DNA from: Salinibacter pepae
Lineage (GTDB): Bacteria > Bacteroidota > Rhodothermia > Rhodothermales > Salinibacteraceae
Length of the DNA: 64,000 nt
Direction of reading: 5' to 3'
NCBI RefSeq assembly: GCF_947077775.1
Contig: NZ_CAMTTE010000001.1
Span: 1,302,001 to 1,366,000, forward strand
Notes under the pieces: generated by a model
Seen by the model: the letters and a program-made list of their open reading frames with translations, nothing else
What the model was told of the DNA's origin: nothing
Database searches by the model: none
Translations under genes and position numbers: made by a program
In this document: positions 49,993 through 62,590 of the stretch, piece after piece
Layout of the letters: the number at the start of each line of letters is the position of its first letter
How positions within the stretch are numbered: the stretch's first letter is position 1

Positions 49993-50178
49993 GCGGGGGG
50001 GCGGCAGCTTCGTGGAGGGGGATGCTCGGAGCAAGCGCCCTGCCGGGCCCTCGTATTGCGTGATGCGCATTGCGTGAGGGCAAGGGCGCTTATATTCCTG
50101 TAGAGGCAGTTACACCGTCGGGCTGGGCACGCGTTTCTGGTCGGGACAGGGGTGTTACGGCAAGGATACGTTGGGCGC
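49993..50178. other. uvrA upstream region
   Basis: Upstream of the uvrA start; contains the presumed promoter, with the longer uvrA frame running through it to 50070. Apart from an A+T-richer patch near 50085-50105 (GCGCTTATATTCCTGTAGAG), nothing specific is seen. Confidence 0.4.
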
Positions 50179-50450
50179 TCAGCGCTGCAGGAACCGGCGT
50201 AGACGAACAGCGCGTTGCCATTCGGCCTCCTTGTGACGGTCGCCGAGACGAGTCTGCGTGGCGTTTTCCTCTCCCGAGAGCACGCCCGCAAATTGCTCAA
50301 AGTAGCGGGCGTCGAGGGGGCGAATCTTTACGCCGTGATCGGCTCTACGATCACCACCTTGGTCCCCGGCTCAAATCCACGCTTACGACGCAGCGGGGCG
50401 GGGAGGGCGATTTTTCAGTGTTCGGTGACAGTAATCGTGTACCTGGACAC
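50179..50450 (-). pseudogene. Decayed AbrB/MazE-type DNA-binding (antitoxin) gene
   Basis: Reading the minus strand from GTG at 50448-50450 gives VSRYTITVTEH, an in-frame TGA (50415-50417), then KIALPAPLRRKRGFEPGTKV and VIVEPITA, a stop, and, after a one-base frame change near 50330-50335, GVKIRPLDARYFEQFAGVLS, GEENATQTRLGDRHKEAEWQ and RAVRLRRFLQR. The first part is a typical looped-hinge-helix (SpoVT/AbrB) antitoxin domain and the second a typical C-terminal partner-binding tail. With one stop and one frameshift it cannot make a full protein. No toxin gene (for example PIN-domain) remains beside it. Confidence 0.75.
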
Positions 50451-50542
50451 AACCCAACAGAAAGATCTCGCTGAACGAAAAATTGCTTCGGGGGCGGATG
50501 GTGGGTGTACCCATGGATGTTGGCTACGATGAGTCAACAGCT

Positions 50543-51541
50543 CTACGTCGATGTTCCTCCTTCCTCGGGTTCCTCATCCCGCTCCGCCTGCAACTCACGA
50601 AGCGTTGAGTCGCTGCGATATAGCACTTTGCCTGTGGGTACTCGTTCGGAAGCCGATTCTACGTGAACATCCTGATCGTCGAAGAAGATGTGGGGATTGA
50701 ACGACTCCAGGACCGGTCCTTTGTCCACCCCGCCGAGGAAGAACGCCAGGTCCACGTACACCCCCCACTCCCGCAGCGTCTTGATGACCCGGAGCTCCGC
50801 AGGGCTGTCACGGGAGGTCACGAGGGCGAGGCGGACCGGCGAGTACTCGATGCGTGTGGGGAGCCGCTCTTGCATCTGCGCCAGCGCCTTGAGGAAGTCC
50901 TCGTAGGGCCCGCCGGGGAGCGGCTCGTCCTGCAGCGCATCTTCCCGTTCGTGGAATTCCTCCAGGCCCTCCTGTTTGTAGACGAGTTCGCTCTCGTCGG
51001 AAAAGAGCACCGCGTCGCCGTCGAGGGCGATGCGCACCTCACCATCCGTCGCGATGGGAGTGCGGTCCGGAGGAACCAAAAGCACCGCCGCTGCGCATTC
51101 GCCGCTGTCAATGACGGTCCGCGCGTCTTCCGAGTCCGTCGTGAGGAAAAGATCAACGTCGAAGGCGTCGAGATACTCCGTCACCGACGCCCCCGCGGTG
51201 AAGGCCGACCGCGAAATGTCGAGGTCCTGCTCGCGGATGCTTTTGAGCACCCGGACGCCGGTCTCGGGACTGTTCTGGGATAGGATGACAACCTCGGTGA
51301 TGGGCGGGCCGTCCTCGGGGGCGTACTCGTTGAGTTGGAGTAGAGCCTTCACGAGGGGGAGTCCGGTGCCTGGCTCCAGCGGCTCGTCCTCTCGCTTCTG
51401 CATGTACTCCCGATACCGCTCGATTGCCATGTCAGGATCTTCCTCCCGCCACTTTCGGAAGCGTCGATCGGCCTCTTTCAGGTCGAAGAGGGCCGTGGAC
51501 GAGATGCCAACGACAAGCGTACGGGAGAGATCAGTAGGCAT
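50543..51541 (-). CDS. 5'-nucleotidase, cytosolic type (PF06189-like)
   Basis: 332 residues starting MPTDLSRTLVVGISSTALFD; the ATG complement is at 51539-51541. It resembles the cN-I-type 5'-nucleotidase family: an N-terminal GISSTALFDL, LVKALLQLN, EVVILSQNSPETGVRVLKSI, and a C-terminal FFLGGVDKGPVLESFNPHIF followed by an acidic FFDDQDVH segment that matches the conserved Asp-rich end of PF06189. It would dephosphorylate nucleoside monophosphates; in a defence region, nucleotide-depleting enzymes are of interest, but this one is also common as a housekeeping gene. First gene downstream of the low-G+C block on the same strand. Confidence 0.82.
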   Translation of the reverse strand: MPTDLSRTLVVGISSTALFDLKEADRRFRKWREEDPDMAIERYREYMQKREDEPLEPGTGLPLVKALLQLNEYAPEDGPPITEVVILSQNSPETGVRVLKSIREQDLDISRSAFTAGASVTEYLDAFDVDLFLTTDSEDARTVIDSGECAAAVLLVPPDRTPIATDGEVRIALDGDAVLFSDESELVYKQEGLEEFHEREDALQDEPLPGGPYEDFLKALAQMQERLPTRIEYSPVRLALVTSRDSPAELRVIKTLREWGVYVDLAFFLGGVDKGPVLESFNPHIFFDDQDVHVESASERVPTGKVLYRSDSTLRELQAERDEEPEEGGTST

Positions 51542-51611
51542 CCTTTTTCTCTCGTCAGCGTCAAGATGAGAGCTTCAAGTGAGATGCCCCCGATTTCTGT
51601 GCCGAAGTAGT

Positions 51612-52202
51612 TCACTCAATTGACGGATAGGATGCTTTAGCACCATCTCCGGGACCCGTATTGTACACTTGATCATCTGGTAGATCGCTGTCTCTCTCGT
51701 CCTGCTTCTTGCGCTCACTGAGCAGAGTATAAAAGTTTTCGAGCACCAAAACGTAAAGTATTAAAGCCAGGACCAGAACAAGAGTCGTAACCGACAAAAC
51801 GGTAAATGACATACCTCTCAGGACATGCAAAACCTCCTGAGGTATCTCAAACTGAGAGGTAAGCGTGGAGAGTATACCCGTGATCTGCACTATCGCAATA
51901 GCCCCTGCGGCAACAGCGAACACGAAAGCGAGCCGCTTGATAATGTCTATCTGCCTATCTGAGAAATCACGCTTAGAGCGCTGGTCTCTAGGATAGAATA
52001 CAGCTTTTATTGCTTCCGGACTGATTAAAACAGTCCAGGCACCTGCGATCACTACAATTACCGAGGCGATACCTCTCAAGTCCTCATAGAGCGGCCACTG
52101 CTCGCTGAACGGAATTCCGCTGCCTAGCCAGAAAGACACCGCAAGGATCAGTAAACCGACTGTTAGAGCACCGATAACGTATCCACGCTTGAGGCCAGAC
52201 AT
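51612..52202 (-). CDS. Four-helix membrane protein of unknown function
   Basis: 196 residues, not recognised. Four predicted membrane helices (about residues 7-27, 46-66, 90-112 and 130-155): YVIGALTVGLLILAVSFWLG, IASVIVVIAGAWTVLI, LAFVFAVAAGAIAIVQITG and TVLSVTTLVLVLALILYVLV. The 40-residue cytoplasmic tail is charged. It lies in the lowest-G+C part of the window (23 G/C of 60 bases at 51721-51780, against about 65-70% elsewhere), so horizontal origin is likely. Gene order on the minus strand: unknown 359-aa gene, then this one 50 bp later. Confidence 0.72.
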   Translation of the reverse strand: MSGLKRGYVIGALTVGLLILAVSFWLGSGIPFSEQWPLYEDLRGIASVIVVIAGAWTVLISPEAIKAVFYPRDQRSKRDFSDRQIDIIKRLAFVFAVAAGAIAIVQITGILSTLTSQFEIPQEVLHVLRGMSFTVLSVTTLVLVLALILYVLVLENFYTLLSERKKQDERDSDLPDDQVYNTGPGDGAKASYPSIE

Positions 52203-52252
52203 CGGTCTGAGAGGATTATTCGAGTTTGCTTTTCCCTCTTCTGAGATGAGGG

Positions 52253-53332
52253 TTATTCGGTTACTTGTACATCTTCCTCGTACAATGCTCTTTCCATCAG
52301 CTCAGCTCGGTTCTCAAGAACTTGATTCTGCAGGGATTCGAGCCTCACAAAGCCATTCTCGTCGCGTTCAACATCCATTGTCACCGATGCTTTTGGAAGC
52401 GATCGACTAAAAGAGTGCTCTTTGTTCTCCCCCTTGAACACTACCGCATAATCTTCCCAGTTTGAAGATCCATTCTGGTGGCGCTGACGCCACCGCTGAA
52501 TCATTCCCTCAAGTTCTTCTTCGCCAGGGGTGATATCGAGTTCGTATTTTACACGCTTTGGCTCCTGACGGTCCGGTGCCGAATAGAGCCCTACATCATA
52601 CAGGGGACGCTTCCAGTCTTCCAGTGTCTCAACTCCTCCACGTTCTTCTCCTACCTCAAACTTTCTGATAACTTTTCTGATTTCAGGTCTGCGGCGGCGG
52701 ATCTCTTCAAGTGCCCCTGGTACGGGAGTGAGTGAAGAATTGAACCTCACGTAGTAGTTTTCCGGCTCCTGATCAGGATCTGTGTGGTTCTGACAGTGAC
52801 CTATTACTCGCTTGTGTCGTTCGGTATCTCCTTTAGTGACTGCCTCGTAGCCTGCGTAGAACTCTAAAAAGTCCTCCATATACCTCTCCATCTCAGAACG
52901 CCCGTTTCGTCTCCGCTTTTCTACGGCAACAGTAGCGAGCTTATCTTCCTCGGGCAAGAACCAGAAATAGACAGGAAATCCAGCTATATCCTGAGGGTCC
53001 TGAAGAGGATTGGCATGCACCTCAACCTGATTGACTTCGTCGTTCGGATTTACACTTCCGACTTGATTCTCGACGGTCGGAATTTCTATCCACATCGCGA
53101 CAAAGAATTCAGTCGCTGTTGCATCTCTGTGGACCTGGAGGCAGTAGGTTGGGTCAATCGTATCATCCTCCGGTGGAGACACTTCTGTCTCACCAAGCTC
53201 TTTCCCGTCAACCCAATCACTCAACCTTCTCAAAGCTTCTTCTATCTCTCCAAACCGTGCCTCGTCGTCTCCGCGTTTGTAGAAGCCACACTCTTCAATG
53301 TCATAGAACTTAACTTTTACTTCTTCGGGCAT
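52253..53332 (-). CDS. Unknown protein in the defence island, 359 aa
   Basis: Not recognised. 359 residues, soluble, starting MPEEVKVKFYDIEECGFYKR. It begins with a short beta strand and an EIEEALRRLSDWV helix, followed by aromatic strands (TEFFVAMWIEIPTVENQ, GFPVYFWFLPEEDK), a basic/helical region (EKRRRNGRSEMERYMEDFLE), a HCQNHTDPDQEPENYYVRF segment and a charged helical C-terminus. No enzyme motif or membrane helix. It lies 50 bp upstream of the membrane-protein gene and 95 bp downstream of the HEPN-like gene, in the same orientation, with the lower G+C of the block. A companion role in defence is inferred from position only. Confidence 0.7.
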   Translation of the reverse strand: MPEEVKVKFYDIEECGFYKRGDDEARFGEIEEALRRLSDWVDGKELGETEVSPPEDDTIDPTYCLQVHRDATATEFFVAMWIEIPTVENQVGSVNPNDEVNQVEVHANPLQDPQDIAGFPVYFWFLPEEDKLATVAVEKRRRNGRSEMERYMEDFLEFYAGYEAVTKGDTERHKRVIGHCQNHTDPDQEPENYYVRFNSSLTPVPGALEEIRRRRPEIRKVIRKFEVGEERGGVETLEDWKRPLYDVGLYSAPDRQEPKRVKYELDITPGEEELEGMIQRWRQRHQNGSSNWEDYAVVFKGENKEHSFSRSLPKASVTMDVERDENGFVRLESLQNQVLENRAELMERALYEEDVQVTE

Positions 53333-53427
53333 ATCAAAAACACCTACTTGACGCTAATTCAAAAATCGAGGTTTCTCCGACTTTGCTTGAGACGAATATC
53401 TGTCCCACAGCTTCAGACGCGGGATAT

Positions 53428-54078
53428 CTAACTGGAGAACGTTTCACCGTATTTATCCTCAATGTCGTGTAGAAGCAGTATCGGGTCCCCTAAACTCAAG
53501 TACCCCTCTCCCGAACCGTCGACGAAGATTTTCTCGCCGTGCATACCAGATTCAAGCTCAATTCCTCTCCATCTCGCTTCGCTCGTAGGTTCGTCTCCTC
53601 GAAAGCTGAATTCTCCACCGTGTGCAATCCCGTTGCGGCAATATCTGAGGAAGTCTAGAATTGGCCCCTCTGAAATGTCACCATTCTCATAGAAAGGTTT
53701 GATCCGCTCGGTCGCCATCACCAGTAGCGAGCCAGCAGATTTTGTGCTAACGCTGTATAAGTCGTCTTTGGTAATCTCGTAGAACGCCTTTCTTAAACTT
53801 TTGTGAGCGATATCTATGGATGTATTCTCGACCTCGATGAGTGGCTGCAACGGCTGGATTAGAGGCGTGGTATGCCCTGAATTGAATCGATCAATTTTCT
53901 TTTGACTCCATTGTACTCCTAATTCCATCATGAGGTGTTCAGCCGCGAAATCCCGGTCTTCAATGGCGTGCCTGGTAGAAAGCTCTAAATGGCCGTGGAG
54001 TTCAGCCAAGTACCCTGCAACCAATGGACGAAAAATACCATCTTCATCAAATTTGTTGATCGTATTGCCATCAAGCAT
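53428..54078 (-). CDS. HEPN-like protein (RX4H motif) downstream of the methyltransferase
   Basis: 216 residues, all helical except for a short beta C-terminus. Residues 148-153 (CRNGIAHGG) read R-N-x-x-x-H, the RX4-6H signature of HEPN-fold RNases often found in toxin and abortive-infection proteins; a preceding helix pair (AHKSLRKAFYEITKDDLYSV, AGSLLVMATERIKPFY) supports the fold. Not every HEPN protein is an active RNase, and the family cannot be named by eye. It starts 37 bp after the methyltransferase stop on the same strand, which suggests cotranscription and a role in the same defence unit. Confidence 0.68.
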   Translation of the reverse strand: MLDGNTINKFDEDGIFRPLVAGYLAELHGHLELSTRHAIEDRDFAAEHLMMELGVQWSQKKIDRFNSGHTTPLIQPLQPLIEVENTSIDIAHKSLRKAFYEITKDDLYSVSTKSAGSLLVMATERIKPFYENGDISEGPILDFLRYCRNGIAHGGEFSFRGDEPTSEARWRGIELESGMHGEKIFVDGSGEGYLSLGDPILLLHDIEDKYGETFSS

Positions 54079-54115
54079 GATAGGAGGATAGCCCCAAAAT
54101 GAGAGGGCCTATTAT

Positions 54116-57100
54116 TTACACTTCATCAATAGCAGGTACTCTCTGCTCTACCAACTGGATTTCGTCAGGAGTGAGCCCGTACAGCTCATAGACCGCTTCG
54201 TCGAGAGCGTTTTCTTCTCTTCGGATCTGGTCACCCCGTGACTCGACTACGCCTTCGGGGGCGTCGTGAAGATCAAGAAGCTTTTGTGCATGAGACTCAA
54301 TCTTTTCTCGGAGGTCTTGGGAGGCATCCTCCCGTGGGATGACAGGAAGTCGCTTCAACGTGTCCTTGAAGAAGCGGAGGTAGCTGCCGCGGTACGTGGC
54401 AAAGTGGTGGATGTAGTAGAATCCAGCGAGTCGGGAGTTGAGCAGGCCCAAGAGGTATAAGCCAGCATCTGCAATGATGTACAGGGTATTGGCCGGATAA
54501 ATTCCGCTCTCGTCAAGGGTAAAGCTACCACGAACTGAGAGGTCGGAGTAGATAATCTTTGTGCCTTCGAAGGCCTTGTAGTAGTCCACCGCATCCTGGA
54601 TTTCGTACCAGGCGTAGCTCCCGCTCTTCCGACCAGGCCACTTCGCATCCTCATGTCGTGGATTCCAGTCTTTCGGCTTCGGCTTCAGGCGTTCCTTATG
54701 CTGGGAGAGGTATTCCTTTACAGCCGGGTAGGCATCGATGTCAATGCCCCGACGGGTGAATATGACGTAGCTGTCATGCTCTGGAGGTGTGTACCGATAG
54801 GCATTTCGTCCCGTGAGGAAAGGCTTGATGATTTCACGGCTCGACTCGTGGGAATCGATAAGCTGTTGGCGCTTGGCCGAGCTGATCTTGAAGACAGCGT
54901 TGCAGCCGGTCTTAATTCCATAGTTAATTGAGTCGTTGACCACCTTATTCAGGGAACCACCAATCTCTCGGAGTGTGCTGAGTAGATCCCTTTCGTTGGG
55001 TGTTGCAAGAGACCAACATTCCTCTCTCAGTTGTGATCGTACTACTTCATACTGGTTCTCGGTGACATAGGCAGCCAGGTTATCATAATCGAGGTGCTCA
55101 ACCTCTACGGCCTGTAAACTTTCATCTGAGGAGGCATTAACCCCGCGGAAGATACACGGGTAAGCGATCACACCCTGGAAGACCGGAAGATCTTTGAAGT
55201 CGATGATTTCCGTAAGCTCTCGGCTTTTCAGCCATCTCCGCAGCTTATTCCCGTATCTTGCTCGCAGCCACTTGTTCTTGATGATGTACGCGAGTTGACC
55301 GTCGGGCCGGAGCAGATTCATCCCCCGCTCCACGAAATAGGTGCAGTAGTCTGCACTCTTTTTGTAAATCTCGTAGCCCTTGAGAGCATCTTTCTGCTGG
55401 TCCGTTAAGTTTCCGGCAGTCACATACGGTGGGTTCCCGATAACGACATCGAACCCATCCTGCTCTTTGAAGACGGTCCCAAAATACAGTCCGAAGTCAA
55501 ACTGGCCGTCTCCAAGAAGTTCACTCAGGTGTTCATCGATTTGCTCCTGGAGACGCTCCTTTTCAGACGGGTGAGCCGTACTCACGAACTCTTCCATCAG
55601 GGCATGGAGTTGTGCTTCCTGCTCGTTGTTGAAGAAACTCCGCTCAATCTTCTGTAGCGCATCCCCCTGCACAAACTTGTATCGCAGGTTGGGGAGCGGG
55701 CGGATGTCTTCAAAGTCCTCCTCGTCTACCACCAGCGAGAGCCAGAGGCGAAGCTGGGCAATGTCGATTGCACTTGGGTCGATGTCCACGCCATGAAGCG
55801 AGTGCTGGATGGCGTGGCGTTTGAGTGGATACGCTTCTCGTTCAATTTCGTCGTCGATGTAGGTGTCGAGCACCTGGCGGGCCTGCACGATTTCCTGCAT
55901 CATACCCACAGGGAAGGCGCCAGAACCTACAGCCGGATCGCAGATCCGCACGTCGCTGAGCACCGCGTCAATTTCCCGGGCATGCGTACGAATCGGACGG
56001 GGCGCCTTGTATTCCGAATACTTGCCGTTAGTGGACTCACTCTCCTGCGTTCGACTGTCGTGCTCGATCCATCCCGACCCATCACGCACAAGGGCCTCCA
56101 GATGGTGTCGCTCCACCTGAGGGTTGTAGTCCTCTCCGCTGAGCACACCTTGCTGTGTGGGTCCGTCCCCAAACGCGTTCTGCTGTCGTGGCTCAGGACG
56201 GGTCAGCGGCGCCTCGCGCACATTAAGCTCCGTGTCGAGGTGATCGACAAGGTTCTGCTGGCACATGTAGTGCACGATGTCGCGGGGTGTGTAGAAGGCG
56301 CCTAGCTCCTTCTGACGGTCATCCAACAGAAGCTTTTCGAACACTTTTCCCAACATCTCGGGATCGACGGCCACCTCCTTGTCCAGCGGCTCATCCTCGC
56401 GGACGGTGAAGTTGTAGCGGTCAAATGTGTCGAAAATGTCGCCGAACGTCTCGTCGGGCAGCGGCAGGTGCACCCGGCTCCGGTCAACGTTGTGGATGGG
56501 CTGAAAGAGGCCGCCGTTCAGAAACGGCACCCGGCAGCGAAGGGCACTGAAATAATTGTCGCCGCCGCGGTCCACCGCGAGGCCCTGATAAAAAAGCGGC
56601 TCCAAGACGTCCCGGTAGAAGTTGTCGTAGTCGACGTACTCGCCCTCGTAGAGCTGCCGCAAAAAGTTGCCGGGGCCCTCGCCCCAGTCGTCCCCACGCT
56701 GCACGCCGAGCCACCCTTTCTTCTGGAGGAAGTAGAGAAAGACGAGCTGTCCCGTCAGCTTCTCGGCGAAGGCTTCGGGCGTCACGTCTTTCTCGTCGAA
56801 CTCGTCCTGGGCCGTCTCGTCCTCCGCTAGGGCTGCCTCCACGTCCTCCGTCAGCGTCTTGTAGTGCCCCCGATACGCCTCGAAGAATTCGTCCGTAACG
56901 ACCTCAATGTCGAAGGCATCCTTCAGCTCGTGGAGCGGGGGCGGGAACCGGAGCTCTTCGCTCTGGAGGAGCGGCGCAAACTGCCGCTTCGGAGTGTGAC
57001 TGGGCTCATTTTCGCCCACGAGGAAGGTATACCGGACATGCGTAAGTTCTTCCTCTGCCTTCACGTCGCCGGTCTCTTCGTCGACCACCGTTCGGTATTC

Positions 57101-57490
57101 GAGCTGCACGAACGAAAGCCGCCAGTCGTCCGTGCCGTCGGCGTAGTAGGCCACCAGCGCCGCCTCCCGCCCCTGCCGGGCCGGTTGCTTCAAATATGTG
57201 GCCGCGAAGTTGCGCTGCATGGTGCGGGCCCGCTCCAGCTTGTGGGGCGTCTTCAGCTTCACCGCCAGCACGTCCATCTCTTCCCCGTTCGGGTCGGTGT
57301 ATTTGGCGAGCCGTTTGTAGGAGGCTACGTGCTCGCGGAACGACTCGTAGACCATTTGCCCCGACCGGTGCTCCTTGTCCTTCATGTCGGGCTCGACGAG
57401 CAGGTTCTGGATGAAGGTGCGGAGCCTTGTCTCGTCGTAGGCGCCGTCGAAGGTATCGCTAATGAGCGTCTTGGCGGCATCGGGGTGCAT
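54116..57490 (-). CDS. Eco57I-type adenine-specific DNA methyltransferase (large, with target-recognition domain)
   Basis: 1124 residues. SAM-binding motif I DPAVGSGAFPVG (residue 518 onward) and catalytic NPPY (686-689) mark an N6-adenine methyltransferase of the gamma type. The N-terminal 300 residues (TDPNGEEMDVLAVKLKTPHK, LERARTMQRNFAATYL, DDWRLSFVQLEY) carry a conserved module I cannot identify; a D-x8-K-type pattern there could be a degenerate PD-(D/E)XK nuclease. The C-terminal 350 residues are TaqI-like target-recognition sequence (PFLTGRNAYRY, LYLLGLLNSRL, ATYRGSYLRFFKDTLKRLPV). It lies 74 bp downstream of the PLD/SNF2 helicase gene; probably the modification half of a restriction/defence system. 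The second half of the gene is less G+C rich than the first. Confidence 0.9.
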   Translation of the reverse strand: MHPDAAKTLISDTFDGAYDETRLRTFIQNLLVEPDMKDKEHRSGQMVYESFREHVASYKRLAKYTDPNGEEMDVLAVKLKTPHKLERARTMQRNFAATYLKQPARQGREAALVAYYADGTDDWRLSFVQLEYRTVVDEETGDVKAEEELTHVRYTFLVGENEPSHTPKRQFAPLLQSEELRFPPPLHELKDAFDIEVVTDEFFEAYRGHYKTLTEDVEAALAEDETAQDEFDEKDVTPEAFAEKLTGQLVFLYFLQKKGWLGVQRGDDWGEGPGNFLRQLYEGEYVDYDNFYRDVLEPLFYQGLAVDRGGDNYFSALRCRVPFLNGGLFQPIHNVDRSRVHLPLPDETFGDIFDTFDRYNFTVREDEPLDKEVAVDPEMLGKVFEKLLLDDRQKELGAFYTPRDIVHYMCQQNLVDHLDTELNVREAPLTRPEPRQQNAFGDGPTQQGVLSGEDYNPQVERHHLEALVRDGSGWIEHDSRTQESESTNGKYSEYKAPRPIRTHAREIDAVLSDVRICDPAVGSGAFPVGMMQEIVQARQVLDTYIDDEIEREAYPLKRHAIQHSLHGVDIDPSAIDIAQLRLWLSLVVDEEDFEDIRPLPNLRYKFVQGDALQKIERSFFNNEQEAQLHALMEEFVSTAHPSEKERLQEQIDEHLSELLGDGQFDFGLYFGTVFKEQDGFDVVIGNPPYVTAGNLTDQQKDALKGYEIYKKSADYCTYFVERGMNLLRPDGQLAYIIKNKWLRARYGNKLRRWLKSRELTEIIDFKDLPVFQGVIAYPCIFRGVNASSDESLQAVEVEHLDYDNLAAYVTENQYEVVRSQLREECWSLATPNERDLLSTLREIGGSLNKVVNDSINYGIKTGCNAVFKISSAKRQQLIDSHESSREIIKPFLTGRNAYRYTPPEHDSYVIFTRRGIDIDAYPAVKEYLSQHKERLKPKPKDWNPRHEDAKWPGRKSGSYAWYEIQDAVDYYKAFEGTKIIYSDLSVRGSFTLDESGIYPANTLYIIADAGLYLLGLLNSRLAGFYYIHHFATYRGSYLRFFKDTLKRLPVIPREDASQDLREKIESHAQKLLDLHDAPEGVVESRGDQIRREENALDEAVYELYGLTPDEIQLVEQRVPAIDEV

Positions 57491-57564
57491 GAAGGTGGAT
57501 CGGCTTCAGAAGTGGATTCAGACAGCAAGTCTCGATCAGACACGGAAGGACGATTGACGAGCCC

Positions 57565-60500
57565 TCAATCGGACTGGAGGTATCCGGATAGAATGACCTC
57601 CCGGTGTTCGTCGCGCTCGTCCCGGCGTCGGCGCTGCACGTCGAGAATGGAGTCGGGAACGTACTCGCGGAAAATCTGGAGGGCCTTTAAGGGATCAGCC
57701 TCACTCTCCAGTTCATGTTTGATCCGCCGGATTGTCTTCTCCGGAATGACGGCGTCGTCGAAGGCCCGCAGGACCTCTTGCCGAAACTGATCGTCCCGGT
57801 CCGTGAATCGCTTGCAGTGCTTCATCTCTTTCGTGCGAAGGCGCTTCATGACGTACTCCTCGTTGGAGAGCCCGCCCGCTGCACTTGACCCGTCCGTCTC
57901 CTCCGAGGCGCTATGGTCGAAGGCCTCTTTGTTGCGGGCAAGGCGGTCATAAAAATCCTCGGGCAGTTCGATACGCGACGTGCCGGGCTCGCACTCAAAG
58001 GCCTGCGCGGCTTCGAAGAACGTAAGTTCCCGAGACACTTCCTCCTCCGCCAGAAAAAACTGCTTCAGATCCCCCCGTCGGAAGAAGGTGAGCAGGCCGG
58101 AGGGGTGCCGGGGCCCTTCGTCTACGGATCGAGCCGTCCGCGCCTTCTTCGGAAGGTTCTTGATGCGCTCGAACTGCTCGGAATCGTTGTCGCGGAGGTC
58201 GCGGAGGAGACGCAGGTACTTGAGCTCCGACGGCCCCTCGTCCGGCTCTCCGTCGTACGTGTCGGCGTCGTTGAGGCGCTCGTACAGCTCCTCTCCGAAC
58301 AGCCCGTGGGTTGTGACCTCTTCCTCGTCGGTTAGGTACTGCGCGTCCTCCCCCAGCGTGTCGTGAAAGGCCTGAATCTTGCTCGTGATGTTGGCCTCCA
58401 GATTGATCTCCTCGTCGGCCGCGGCGGTGGGAAAGAAGTTGTAGACGAAGATCTGGTCATGCGTCCCGCCCACCCGGTTAACCCGACCCACGCGCTGGAG
58501 CACCCGCGTCGGGTTCCAGGGCAGGTCGTAGTTCATGACCGTGTTCGAGCGGTGCAGGTTAATGCCCTCGGCCAGCACGTCCGTCGTGATGAGGATTCGG
58601 TACTCGTCCTCCGGGTCGTCCACCGTAGGATCGAACGTGTTCTTGATCCGCCGACGCGCCTGTTGCACGCTGATCGACCCGTCGCCGTCCCGTCCTCCGT
58701 CGCTGGAATAAAAGATCGCCTTCCCGGGCACGGCCTCTTCCAAGGCGTCGAGGAGATACCGGCCGGTTTCCGCCGCCTCCGTAAAGATCAGGAGCTTGCC
58801 GTCTCGGAGTGTGTCGTCGGACTGGAGGCGGTCGAGAAACGCGTCGAGCTTCGGATCCTCGTCGATGGGTGCCCAGTTCCTTTGAATTTCCCGGAGCAGA
58901 CGAAGGTCGGCCCGAAGCTCGTCCATCAATTCGTCGGAGAAGTCGTCGGCGTCGTATTTGCTGACCCGGCCTTCCTCGAGCAACTCGTGGAGGCGTTCCT
59001 CGCGGTCGTTGTCGAGCAGGTCGAACACATTCACGTCCCGTCCCAGATACACCGTGCCGTTCCGGTACATTTCAATGAACCGCTCATACGACTCGATGAA
59101 GCGGGCGAGCGTGCGCTTGAAGGCGTAGAAGCTGCTCTCCAGGCGCTTCACGAGGATGCTCTTCATGAAGCCCCCGATGTTGCGCTGCGACTGTTCGCGG
59201 AGCGGGTCGATCTCGCCCTCGTAGAAGAGCAACGGGGTGTAGCGGGCGTAGCTAAACTCCCCGATGCGGTCGATGGTGCGGGTGAAGACCGTATCGAGGC
59301 TCTCGTCGAACTCGTAGAGAATCCGGCGGGGCGCGGCCACGTCGGGGAAGGACAGGCCCTGCTTCTCCATGTCGTCCCCGTAGTACTGTTCAACCTCGCT
59401 CCGCGTCCGCCGAATCATGACGTGCTTGAGCACGCGGTCGCGGACCTCGTCGTAGATATTCTGCGCCACCTCCGTGTACGCAGGCGTGCCGCGCTCATGG
59501 CGGTTCAGTCGACGCTGGCGTTCGTCGAAGAAGCGCTTGAGATCCCGAACGCCGGGAATCGTGCTGCGGCGCGGCGTCTGGAAGAGCTTGAGGAGGCTAT
59601 AGATGTCGCTCACGTCGTTGTTGAGCGGCGTGGCCGACACGCAGATCACCTTCTTGCCAAAGGCAATCTGGTGGAGCTTCTCGTACCGCTGCGTCGTTTC
59701 ATTGCGGAACCGATGCGCCTCATCGAGCACCACGAAGTCGTATTTCTCGTGCCCGTCCCGGAGCACGTGGTCGAGCTTGCCGAGGGACTCGATCCGGTAG
59801 CCCCGCACGCCGAAGTCGACAAACGTCTCTCGCCAATAGTCCTCCAGCACGGGCGGACACACCACGAGCGTGCGGCCCTGAAGCTGCTGCATGAGCATGG
59901 CGGTGACGTAGGTCTTGCCCAGTCCCACCACGTCCGCGATGAACACGCCGTCGTGCGCGTCCAAAATCTTGCGGGCCGCCGTTACCGCCTGCTCCTGGTA
60001 CTCCAGTTCCAGGAAGTCGTCCGGACGGTATAGCTCGTCGGTCTCCCGCTGATCGAGATTGATGTCCTCTTCAAAGTACTCGTAGAGGAACTTGAGGTAG
60101 AGATCGTACGGGGTGATCTCGTCGTTTAGCCACGTGTCGTGACGAAGGGTCTCGACGAAATCCTCCGTCACCTCGACGCTCTGCTCCCACAACTCTTCGA
60201 ACTTTTCCAGCGCAAACTCCACGTCGGCCCGATCTTTCAGCTCCACGTTGAATTCGCGCTGTCCCCGCAGCCCAGATTCCGTGAAGTTGCTCGACCCGGT
60301 GATCACGTGACCGTAGTGGGCGTCGCTGTCGTAGCGACCGATGTAGACCTTCGCGTGAATGTTCTCGGTGGGAAACGCCCGAACTTCCATTTTTCCCTCT
60401 TCCAGGAACCGAAGAAACGCCCGAAGCCCCTTTTCAACATCCCGAGCCTCCTCCGCGGCCTCCATTTGCTCGACGATGTTGCCGCGAACGCGCTCATGGG

Positions 60501-60783
60501 CCTTCGCGTGGGACTCGAAACCGAACGAGGACTCTCCCCGATGCTCCTGGAGAAGACGGTGCGTGGTTCGTCCTACGTTGAGTCCCACCAGGATGCGAAT
60601 GTGCTCCACGTCCTCCAGCGCCTCGTACAGCTGATGAAATCCGCTGATACGAAAGTAGCCCACGAGCACGTCGAAGAACTGCACCTCCGTCAATGTACGC
60701 CGGAATCGCTCGTGGAGGGAGACGCCGGACTCGTCGTTCGTGAAGAAGGTGAGGTCGGTTGGAGCAACCGTGCGGTCGGGCAT
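57565..60783 (-). CDS. PLD-nuclease/SNF2 helicase fusion
   Basis: 1072 residues. The N-terminal domain is phospholipase-D-like: HAKVYIGRYD (His143, Lys145) with the trailing GSSNFTESGL, the HxK(x)4D/GSxN pattern of PLD-family nucleases (PLDc_2). This is fused to a superfamily-2 SNF2/HepA-type ATPase: Walker A VVGLGKTYVT (GLGKT 287-291), DEAH (354-357), SATPLNND, the C-terminal helicase lobe with KLLIFTEAAETGRYLL and the LHRSNTVMNYDLPWNPTRVL and QRVGRVNRVGGTHDQIF motif VI. It would couple DNA tracking with cleavage, as in helicase-nuclease defence proteins. Transcribed ahead of the methyltransferase (74 bp gap); its promoter and a small dyad lie at 60784-60906. Confidence 0.88.
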   Translation of the reverse strand: MPDRTVAPTDLTFFTNDESGVSLHERFRRTLTEVQFFDVLVGYFRISGFHQLYEALEDVEHIRILVGLNVGRTTHRLLQEHRGESSFGFESHAKAHERVRGNIVEQMEAAEEARDVEKGLRAFLRFLEEGKMEVRAFPTENIHAKVYIGRYDSDAHYGHVITGSSNFTESGLRGQREFNVELKDRADVEFALEKFEELWEQSVEVTEDFVETLRHDTWLNDEITPYDLYLKFLYEYFEEDINLDQRETDELYRPDDFLELEYQEQAVTAARKILDAHDGVFIADVVGLGKTYVTAMLMQQLQGRTLVVCPPVLEDYWRETFVDFGVRGYRIESLGKLDHVLRDGHEKYDFVVLDEAHRFRNETTQRYEKLHQIAFGKKVICVSATPLNNDVSDIYSLLKLFQTPRRSTIPGVRDLKRFFDERQRRLNRHERGTPAYTEVAQNIYDEVRDRVLKHVMIRRTRSEVEQYYGDDMEKQGLSFPDVAAPRRILYEFDESLDTVFTRTIDRIGEFSYARYTPLLFYEGEIDPLREQSQRNIGGFMKSILVKRLESSFYAFKRTLARFIESYERFIEMYRNGTVYLGRDVNVFDLLDNDREERLHELLEEGRVSKYDADDFSDELMDELRADLRLLREIQRNWAPIDEDPKLDAFLDRLQSDDTLRDGKLLIFTEAAETGRYLLDALEEAVPGKAIFYSSDGGRDGDGSISVQQARRRIKNTFDPTVDDPEDEYRILITTDVLAEGINLHRSNTVMNYDLPWNPTRVLQRVGRVNRVGGTHDQIFVYNFFPTAAADEEINLEANITSKIQAFHDTLGEDAQYLTDEEEVTTHGLFGEELYERLNDADTYDGEPDEGPSELKYLRLLRDLRDNDSEQFERIKNLPKKARTARSVDEGPRHPSGLLTFFRRGDLKQFFLAEEEVSRELTFFEAAQAFECEPGTSRIELPEDFYDRLARNKEAFDHSASEETDGSSAAGGLSNEEYVMKRLRTKEMKHCKRFTDRDDQFRQEVLRAFDDAVIPEKTIRRIKHELESEADPLKALQIFREYVPDSILDVQRRRRDERDEHREVILSGYLQSD

Positions 60784-60823
60784 GGCGCATACGCATCAGG
60801 GTGAGCACCCCAGGAGGAAATCC

Positions 60824-60839
60824 GAGACAAGATCGTCTC
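60824..60839. promoter_or_regulatory. Dyad upstream of the helicase-methyltransferase operon
   Basis: GAGAC (60824-60828) and GTCTC (60835-60839) form a perfect inverted repeat with a 6-base spacer, 41-56 bp upstream of the helicase start codon. Its position suits a repressor or regulator site controlling the restriction operon, but no regulator gene is identified, and the match is short. Confidence 0.35.
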
Positions 60840-60906
60840 TTCCGGGCTGTTTATCGCGTTTGCAAGGTAACGTAGCGACTGCGGGAAGTGAAAGGCCCAC
60901 GACTCA

Positions 60907-61365
60907 TCAGAGCAATCGGTCGTCAACCTCCGGATTGAACGGACCGTCGACCGTCACAGACTCGAAGTTCGGATGCCCGGGATTCACCAGCACGTTCGCC
61001 TCGGCCGGCACGACCGCACTGGGCACGCGGAGGGCCAACGAGCGCCCCGACTGAAGCCACTCGTCGCCGACGGCCTGCACGCCCCGTGGGACGGGATTTG
61101 CGCGCCAGTCATCGGGAAGCGCCTCTCGGTCCAGGGACTCGACGGATGTTTCCGGCAGGGACGCCCGAAACGCCACGTAGGTGTCCAGCAAGTGTGAAGT
61201 CGGCAGGTGCACCAGAATCTCCAGTTCGGCCAGGGCCAGCGACTCCGACGTATACACGACCGGCTGCCCCGGGCTATTAAACCGCCCGCCGGCTTGACGG
61301 GCGCCGTCGCCACTGAAGGCCGACTCCGCATATTTCTCTTTGACGAGGCGCCAGACCTGAACCAT
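60907..61365 (-). CDS. RES-domain toxin
   Basis: Toxin of the Xre-RES (MbcT/ParT) type II family, whose members degrade or ADP-ribosylate using NAD(+). 152 residues from the ATG complement 61363-61365 (a start at 61401 would add 12). RES landmarks: VWRLVKEKYAESAFSG, GGRFNSPGQPVVYTSESLAL, AELEILVHLPTSH, LRVPSAVVPAEANVLVNPGHPNF. The stop is 123 bp upstream of the helicase start, so the TA pair precedes the restriction operon on the same strand. The antitoxin stop is 49 bp upstream (or 13 bp, with the longer start). Confidence 0.9.
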   Translation of the reverse strand: MVQVWRLVKEKYAESAFSGDGARQAGGRFNSPGQPVVYTSESLALAELEILVHLPTSHLLDTYVAFRASLPETSVESLDREALPDDWRANPVPRGVQAVGDEWLQSGRSLALRVPSAVVPAEANVLVNPGHPNFESVTVDGPFNPEVDDRLL

Positions 61366-61414
61366 CAACCGAGGAAACGACGACGGGCAACGGAGAGACA
61401 CAAACTGAAGCGCC

Positions 61415-61849
61415 CTAGCTATAGACGCCGTGGTCGAGACGGATCAGCAGGCGCTCCACCTCCCGGGCCCCGGGCTCGGTGTCCGCAAAGTCAAGGGGCG
61501 GCTCGCCCCCCAGCGCACGGGCCGGTTCGGTGAGCCACTTCTGGGCATTGTTGCGACCGTCCAGCACATCGATCGCCCGGAGTGCGAGCCGGGCCACCCG
61601 AAGAATACGCTCCGACTCGTCCTTATTGAACGTGCCGTGTTTGCGACGGCGGCTCAATGTGGAGGGTGTGATGCCGACAATCTCGGCGAGCCGGCCGCTC
61701 GGCACGTCCAGAAGCGCGCGGAGGGCATCGAATCGCTCTGTCGGGAGGCCCTCGCGAACCGTCGCGACGAGCTCCGCCGGCTCCTCCGCCGCAAGCTCCG
61801 GAAAGGACGATGCCCCGGCATCGGTCGTGAGAGAGACTGGAGCACCCAT
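61415..61849 (-). CDS. Xre/MbcA-type antitoxin (DUF2384 family)
   Basis: 144 residues from the ATG complement 61847-61849 (MGAPVSLTTDAG). The middle is a helix-turn-helix: PSGRLAEIVGITPSTLSRRR. The C-terminal helical part carries the MbcA/ParS (DUF2384) pattern: RAIDVLDGRNNAQKWLTEPA, RALGGEPPLDFADTEPGARE and VERLLIRLDHGVY, which binds the RES toxin. The classical order antitoxin-then-toxin is kept. A near-perfect operator-type repeat lies directly upstream (61862-61886). An upstream start at 61936 would run through this repeat and was rejected. Confidence 0.92.
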   Translation of the reverse strand: MGAPVSLTTDAGASSFPELAAEEPAELVATVREGLPTERFDALRALLDVPSGRLAEIVGITPSTLSRRRKHGTFNKDESERILRVARLALRAIDVLDGRNNAQKWLTEPARALGGEPPLDFADTEPGAREVERLLIRLDHGVYS

Positions 61850-61861
61850 CGGGGTTGTTTG

Positions 61862-61886
61862 ATTTGAAAAGAGGCGTTTTTCAAAT
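61862..61886. promoter_or_regulatory. Perfect 9-bp inverted repeat: probable antitoxin operator
   Basis: ATTTGAAAA (61862-61870), 7-base spacer, TTTTCAAAT (61878-61886). It ends 13 bp upstream of the antitoxin start codon on the minus strand. Type II antitoxins of this class commonly bind such palindromes to autoregulate the operon; binding here is inferred. Confidence 0.65.
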
Positions 61887-62128
61887 GGGAACGCTTCTTC
61901 AATCCCTGTGATCCAGGGGGGAGGCCTCTCCGCCAAAACGTGCTTCAGAAACGCACCGTCCCCCCACCCGCCGCACCGAAAGAGTCGGGGCGCACCGGAG
62001 CAACGCGGACGCCGTCCCGGAAGCCGACGCGGCGTCCGGCATGAGACCGCTCGCTACGGACGGCCCCAGCGGCCTCTGTGGGGCTCTCTCGGAAACGAGT
62101 GCCTCCAAACGGTCGCCACAGCCTGCGG
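61887..62128. other. Intergenic region upstream of the toxin-antitoxin operon
   Basis: About 240 bp with no gene; a long opposite-strand frame across it reads as shadow. It should contain the promoter of the antitoxin-toxin operon. The stretch returns to the high G+C typical of the core chromosome. Confidence 0.4.
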
Positions 62129-62590
62129 TCATTCGAGAAGATCCTCCCCGACCTGCTCGACAGGCGCGTGGTCGGGGTACTGTTCGCGAAGACGCGCCCG
62201 GAACGACGAGAGGGACGGCACGGACTCGAAGCGAGTCAGGTGGGCCGGACAGGTACAATCCGACGCCCCAAAGCCGTCGACCGGCACCGTGGCCCCGGAT
62301 CGGTCCCGGAGCACCGCGGCCCACGTGCACTCGCGGCGCTCGGGGTCGTGGGTGTACCAGACCGCCTCCAGTGCCGTGGCCGCACGCAGGTAGTCGACGT
62401 GCCAGTGCTGCGCCCCGTCGCCCCGAGCATGCCGCCCCACTCGGGCACGGAGCCCGCCGGGGCCGAAGGCGCTCCCGACGTAGACGTACACGCCGGGCCA
62501 GACGATCATTTCGCCAAGAGCCCCCACCTCAATCTCCTGGTTCTCCTCGCCACGGAGCAGCAACGCGTAGGTGCCGGGCGCGTCGGTCAT
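62129..62590 (-). CDS. GIY-YIG nuclease family protein (DUF123)
   Basis: 153 residues starting MTDAPGTYALLLRGEENQ. DUF123-type GIY-YIG fold: GTYALLL, the WPGVYVYVGSAFGPGGLRAR segment (GIY-YIG-like VYVYVGSA), HARGDGAQHWHVDYLRAA, and the cysteines CTW and CTCPAH near the C-terminus. Related to small Uri-type nucleases; biological role not known. The ATG overlaps the TGA stop of the upstream propeller gene (ATGA at 62587-62590), so translation is coupled. Short, cytoplasmic. Confidence 0.86.
   Translation of the reverse strand: MTDAPGTYALLLRGEENQEIEVGALGEMIVWPGVYVYVGSAFGPGGLRARVGRHARGDGAQHWHVDYLRAATALEAVWYTHDPERRECTWAAVLRDRSGATVPVDGFGASDCTCPAHLTRFESVPSLSSFRARLREQYPDHAPVEQVGEDLLE

Follow-up and report, generated by a model that had tools for sequence, protein, structure and literature searches.

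Do five closely packed minus-strand genes in Salinibacter pepae make up one new defence system, or are they separate modules that share an island? The genes lie in a window of 64,000 nucleotides (contig NZ_CAMTTE010000001.1 of assembly GCF_947077775.1, positions 1,302,001 to 1,366,000 of the forward strand), and positions given here are those of the window. An earlier note, made from this DNA alone, took positions 51612-60783 for a candidate restriction or defence operon in which a helicase and a methyltransferase would be joined by three new accessory parts. All five of the open reading frames that it listed are present:

57565-60783, minus strand: PLD(HKD)-nuclease/SNF2 helicase, 1072 residues (Pfam PLDc_2, SNF2-rel_dom and Helicase_C; PADLOC C3a139 'HKD+Snf2', E 1.2e-58)
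54116-57490, minus strand: Eco57I-type N6-adenine methyltransferase with a C-terminal TaqI-like target-recognition domain, 1124 residues (Pfam Eco57I, E 2.8e-38; TaqI_C at residues 889-1050)
53428-54078, minus strand: gene 3, orphan-family protein of 216 residues with an RNxxxH motif (R148, N149, H153), a putative HEPN-type RNase by that motif
52253-53332, minus strand: gene 4, PDC-M18A, soluble alpha+beta protein of 359 residues, a putative sensor (PADLOC PDC-M18A, E 1e-83; phrog_24371)
51612-52202, minus strand: gene 5, PDC-M18B, 196 residues with four predicted transmembrane segments, a putative membrane effector (PADLOC PDC-M18B, E 5.5e-27)

Cross-searching profiles of the five proteins over 94 related loci found M18A with M18B in 58, helicase with methyltransferase in nine and gene 3 in seven, with no mixture; some of these loci overlap or are near-identical, and the counts are a measure of separability, not of frequency. 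The other 20 loci contain the helicase only or the methyltransferase only, mostly on short flanks. A genome-contig scan with the single query P0004 gave no match. We are fairly confident that the island is a stack, on one strand, of at least three separable modules: the helicase-methyltransferase pair, gene 3, and the M18A-M18B pair (M18AB). The earlier note had proposed a comparison of neighbourhoods, and by the note's own standard this comparison refutes a single system with three dedicated parts, as the accessory genes do occur apart from the pair: M18AB is found elsewhere without it, relatives of gene 3 are orphans, and the pair in a related genome (G006) is accompanied by other genes. The locus is an ordinary defence island, with M18AB as its one useful lead.

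Both proteins of the pair carry the motifs that had been read in them. The PLD site of the helicase consists of His143/Lys145 and GSSNF at residues 163-167, and its motor motifs are a SNF2 Walker A at 284, DEAH at 354, SATP at 383 and QRVGR at 763. HxK...GSSN...E and the motor motifs are kept in all eight aligned helicases, which come from Bacteroidota, Deinococcota, Cyanobacteria, Halobacteria and the organism's own family (seven are 26-67% identical to the helicase studied here), indicating that these are not chance matches. The protein is a probable restriction motor-nuclease. The methyltransferase has motif I (DPAVGSGAF) at 518 and NPPY at 686, and the PADLOC model REase_MTase_IIG matches it over its full length (E 7.5e-230). 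Its N terminus shows no nuclease family match in Pfam and no evident conserved catalytic motif among five relatives, making the PLD domain a better candidate for the cutter than a Type IIG nuclease. Alignment with the orthologue from G006, which belongs to another genus of the same family, gives an identity minimum of 37% at residues 826-900, bordering the recognition domain, as would be expected if specificity had changed.

The pair also turns up in Prevotella, Parabacteroides, Nostoc, Halorussus, Allomeiothermus, Thermus and Thermococcus, with other accessory genes or none, and eight plasmid records, bacterial as well as archaeal, have both genes in one neighbourhood. The two homologues adjoin directly in Prevotella nigrescens and Parabacteroides. 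In G006, the pair is present at 67% (helicase) and 58% (methyltransferase) identity, in reversed order and with four unrelated genes inserted. Recurrence in distant bacteria and archaea supports a real core pair. The reading of the locus as a restriction or defence locus built on these two enzymes is supported too. The four genes inserted in G006 (L123:4944-8176) encode proteins of 304, 449, 109 and 191 residues that neither PADLOC nor Pfam assigns above its cut-off, and are possible further embedded candidates. On a plasmid of Nostoc sp. UHCC 0926, genes annotated as viperin and as an EVE-domain protein (L070:16395-18358) stand directly behind the helicase-methyltransferase locus.

Gene 3 has no family match in Pfam, PADLOC, NCBIfam or PHROGs, and viral-contig scans with it gave no match. 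Its relatives are found in four genomes (Gracilimonas, a deltaproteobacterium, a nitrospirote and a planctomycete), with a more distant one on a Rhodococcus plasmid; they are orphans that stand alone, mostly amid housekeeping genes. R148-N149-xxx-H153 is invariant in the five aligned sequences of the family and fits the definition of the HEPN active site as Rx4-6H with a polar residue after the arginine (PMC3710099). An AlphaFold model proved unusable (predicted local distance difference test [pLDDT] score of 37) and Pfam returned no HEPN match, so no HEPN fold is assigned to gene 3. The HEPN-like label that it had been given comes from its motif. By this motif, gene 3 is probably a HEPN-like RNase acting alone.

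Genes 4 and 5 had been counted as unknown new parts. Both match the PADLOC candidates PDC-M18A and PDC-M18B, in the same order, and this order and the tight spacing are kept elsewhere. PDC entries are candidates obtained by 'guilt by embedding' and are mostly untested (PMC12988326); a literature search found no paper that uses the name PDC-M18. M18B accompanies M18A in 58/58 other loci, where the two genes typically overlap or lie within ~13 bp of each other, and neither the helicase-methyltransferase pair nor gene 3 is present in any of them. These loci are mostly prophages, with phage context assigned by annotation and by repressor and lysis-gene neighbours. M18AB lies next to the repressor in P2-like phages, before the holin in a Mu-like arrangement in Pseudomonas, and between antiterminator and holin in an E. 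coli prophage (L134:9001-10551; annotated as two 'hypothetical proteins'). The E. coli version is present at 99% or higher DNA identity in 33 of 5,426 complete E. coli genomes. Plasmids and one chromosome from the same class carry M18AB as well, with no phage structural genes adjoining. Vibrio phage 10N.222.45.E8_PE002 carries M18AB beside genes annotated as Septu and as a Type IV restriction enzyme (L012:6573-9897), a phage-borne defence cluster.

The AlphaFold model of M18A is of good confidence, with a pLDDT of 85.9. Fold relatives in the PDB, CENP-N and RdgC, were weak (E ~0.02 or worse, template modelling [TM] score 0.2-0.3), the best viral fold matches were unnamed phage proteins and one named exonuclease (TM 0.30), and searching PDB sequences with a profile returned marginal colicin matches only; none of these was used. 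Four segments of M18B are hydrophobic, and a family motif around 'ASIIFAVVGAWxAIIYPERLK' is conserved at the second. A natural guess is that M18A serves as a soluble sensor and M18B as a membrane effector.

The modules sit together in an acquired island whose run of genes continues beyond the five:

50174-62186 (approximate): horizontally acquired island, with uvrA on one side and a DUF123/beta-propeller gene pair on the other (blastn against sister genomes; lower guanine-plus-cytosine [GC] content)
50543-51541, minus strand: 5'-nucleotidase, PADLOC candidate PDC-S08 (Pfam 5-nucleotidase, E 1.2e-111; PDC-S08, E 6.9e-122)
60907-61401, minus strand: RES-domain toxin at the upstream island edge (NCBIfam Res_ParT_toxin, 165.9 bits, cut-off 110)
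61415-61936, minus strand: Xre/MbcA/ParS-type antitoxin, partner of the RES toxin (Pfam Xre_MbcA_ParS_C, E 1.6e-16; Xre-like-HTH, E 5.9e-16)

The island is ~12 kb long and its GC is below that of its surroundings. Positions 50173 and 62187 are the flanks of a single insertion, as blastn places them only ~500 bp apart in two sister genomes, G015 (L126) and G011 (L129). The island is missing from the same site in both, and this empty site bears out the variable presence that the earlier note had anticipated. Sister genomes G012 and G021 have other, shorter content there. The content of the uvrA-DUF123 gene site (50174-50540; L126:13609-14128) differs in each sister genome, and the site therefore looks like a recurrent insertion spot. 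A search of the island ends found no integrase, no convincing flanking repeat and no target-site duplication.

Composition also differs along the gene run. GC at third codon positions (GC3) is 0.89-0.955 in the two flanking host genes (0.955 in uvrA), 0.82 in the helicase, 0.71 in the methyltransferase and 0.49-0.51 in genes 3-5, confirming the lower GC reported for the downstream end. The methyltransferase itself starts at 0.87 and drops to 0.57-0.68, its C-terminal half having the lower GC. GC3 is thus distinct for each module.

The 5'-nucleotidase gene lies 70 bp downstream of M18B on the same strand and within the island, so the proposed extent of 51612-60783 holds for the five genes and falls short of the full run. 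It is not present in the other 12 genomes of the genus; its product is at most ~64% identical to proteins from E. coli plasmids. At the other end, the RES-Xre genes (60907-61936) form a type II toxin-antitoxin pair that abuts the helicase end of the run, and the genome contains at least two more RES-like matches.

Could the five genes nonetheless act as one cooperating system, the pair with three dedicated accessory proteins? They share a strand, with gaps of 74, 37, 95 and 50 bp from helicase to M18B and no clear internal terminator. However, no other examined locus contains more than one of the modules, G006 as the nearest relative of the pair carries different inserted genes, and GC3 differs sharply between modules. 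We rejected this explanation on the neighbourhood comparison and consider it very improbable. Several points weigh against our own reading of stacked modules. With gaps this short and terminator-like sites no commoner than in shuffled sequence, the five genes may share a transcript and, although separable at other loci, could work together at this one. Queries were used to fetch the 94 loci, many of which have short flanks, and the absence of one module from loci of another is not an estimate from a random sample. The HEPN label of gene 3 comes from a six-residue motif only. Finally, the anti-phage role and all of the biochemical activities are ones that we infer, with a defensive role being likely.

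Two further alternatives concern what the modules are. We put at even chances the proposal that M18AB is a true two-gene system of immunity or superinfection exclusion, widespread and borne by prophages. In it, a soluble sensor whose predicted fold lacks a counterpart among solved structures would be joined to a membrane effector of four helices, and bacteria would collect M18AB alongside restriction pairs as a second layer of defence. It is possible, if somewhat doubtful, that M18AB serves no defence and instead controls phage lifestyle or lysis, having been captured along with an island. Its position directly upstream of holin/endolysin genes in several phages favours lysis control, whereas its place beside the repressor in P2-like phages, its neighbours annotated as Septu and Type IV restriction in one phage, the plasmid and chromosomal copies away from phage structural genes and its listing by PADLOC as a defence candidate speak for an immunity function. 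As for the helicase-methyltransferase pair, the closest described system is Type-2 BREX-related (BR), which comprises an HKD-SNF2 helicase, an N6-methyltransferase, DUF499 and DUF3780 and is described as restriction-modification-like (Rakesh & Krishnan 2026; PMC12839542). Common to both are an HKD nuclease fused N-terminally to a SNF2 helicase and an N6-adenine methyltransferase, and the pair might be a reduced Type-2 BR system that has lost the ATPase and DUF3780. We regard this as unlikely. The DUF499 ATPase, the hallmark of Type-2 BR, has no match in the whole genome, and DUF3780 has no Pfam match in the five locus proteins (no genome-wide search for it was made). Similarly, no DUF499 or DUF3780 is annotated alongside the Prevotella nigrescens and Parabacteroides pairs, suggesting that the stand-alone pair is recurrent rather than the outcome of a local loss. 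Membership of Type-2 BR fails because DUF499 is absent from the genome; the working principle may be the same.

Under the stacked-module reading, the methyltransferase and its recognition domain would mark a specific adenine motif in host DNA, and the PLD-SNF2 protein, as motor and nuclease driven by ATP, would move along invader DNA that lacks the mark and cut it, the cutter being the PLD site (H143, K145, N166 and probably E177). The pair might operate as a Type ISP/Type I enzyme split in two would, or in the manner of a Type-2 BREX-related effector. M18AB would be a stand-alone two-gene system and an accessory pair of prophages, in which M18A would most likely detect infection and M18B work at the membrane, by superinfection exclusion or abortive infection. 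These results correct the tempting reading of the locus as a new multi-gene system. PDC-M18 is a self-contained pair, strongly prophage-associated, widely spread and independent of adjoining genes, and an E. coli version exists. The nearest described system is defined by its DUF499 ATPase, which the HKD-SNF2 and adenine-methyltransferase pair does without. Both M18AB and this pair are directly testable.

The earlier note had compared the two enzymes with class 1 DISARM and type 3 BREX and had seen no hallmark of either, an observation that wider searches uphold. DISARM DrmB (DUF1998/MZB) is missing, with no MZB match genome-wide and positive control genomes. PglZ of BREX is not in the locus, and its sole match in the genome lies in a receiver-PglZ response regulator (PorX type) ~38 kb beyond the island. 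No BrxC-type ATPase, sought with type 3 BREX in mind, is among the locus genes (no genome-wide search for it was made). We rejected membership of DISARM or BREX because these hallmarks are absent. The class 1 DISARM models DrmD and DrmMI give only partial matches (130.6 and 99.4 bits), weaker than those of C3a139 and REase_MTase_IIG, and the NCBIfam DrmD model scores 160 bits against a cut-off of 610.

The methyltransferase resembles Type IIG restriction-modification enzymes in having its own target-recognition domain (Eco57I with TaqI_C) and a full-length REase_MTase_IIG match. It differs from them in that no nuclease motif is recognised in its N terminus, the likely nuclease being in the adjoining PLD-SNF2 protein. 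Also similar to the pair are Type ISP enzymes (LlaGI/LlaBIII), which combine motor, nuclease, methyltransferase and target recognition in one restriction machine with an Mrr-type nuclease, and PLD-helicase restriction enzymes such as SauUSI, which fuses a PLD domain to an SF2 helicase and has no partner methyltransferase. Compared with both, the pair described here divides these functions over two proteins.

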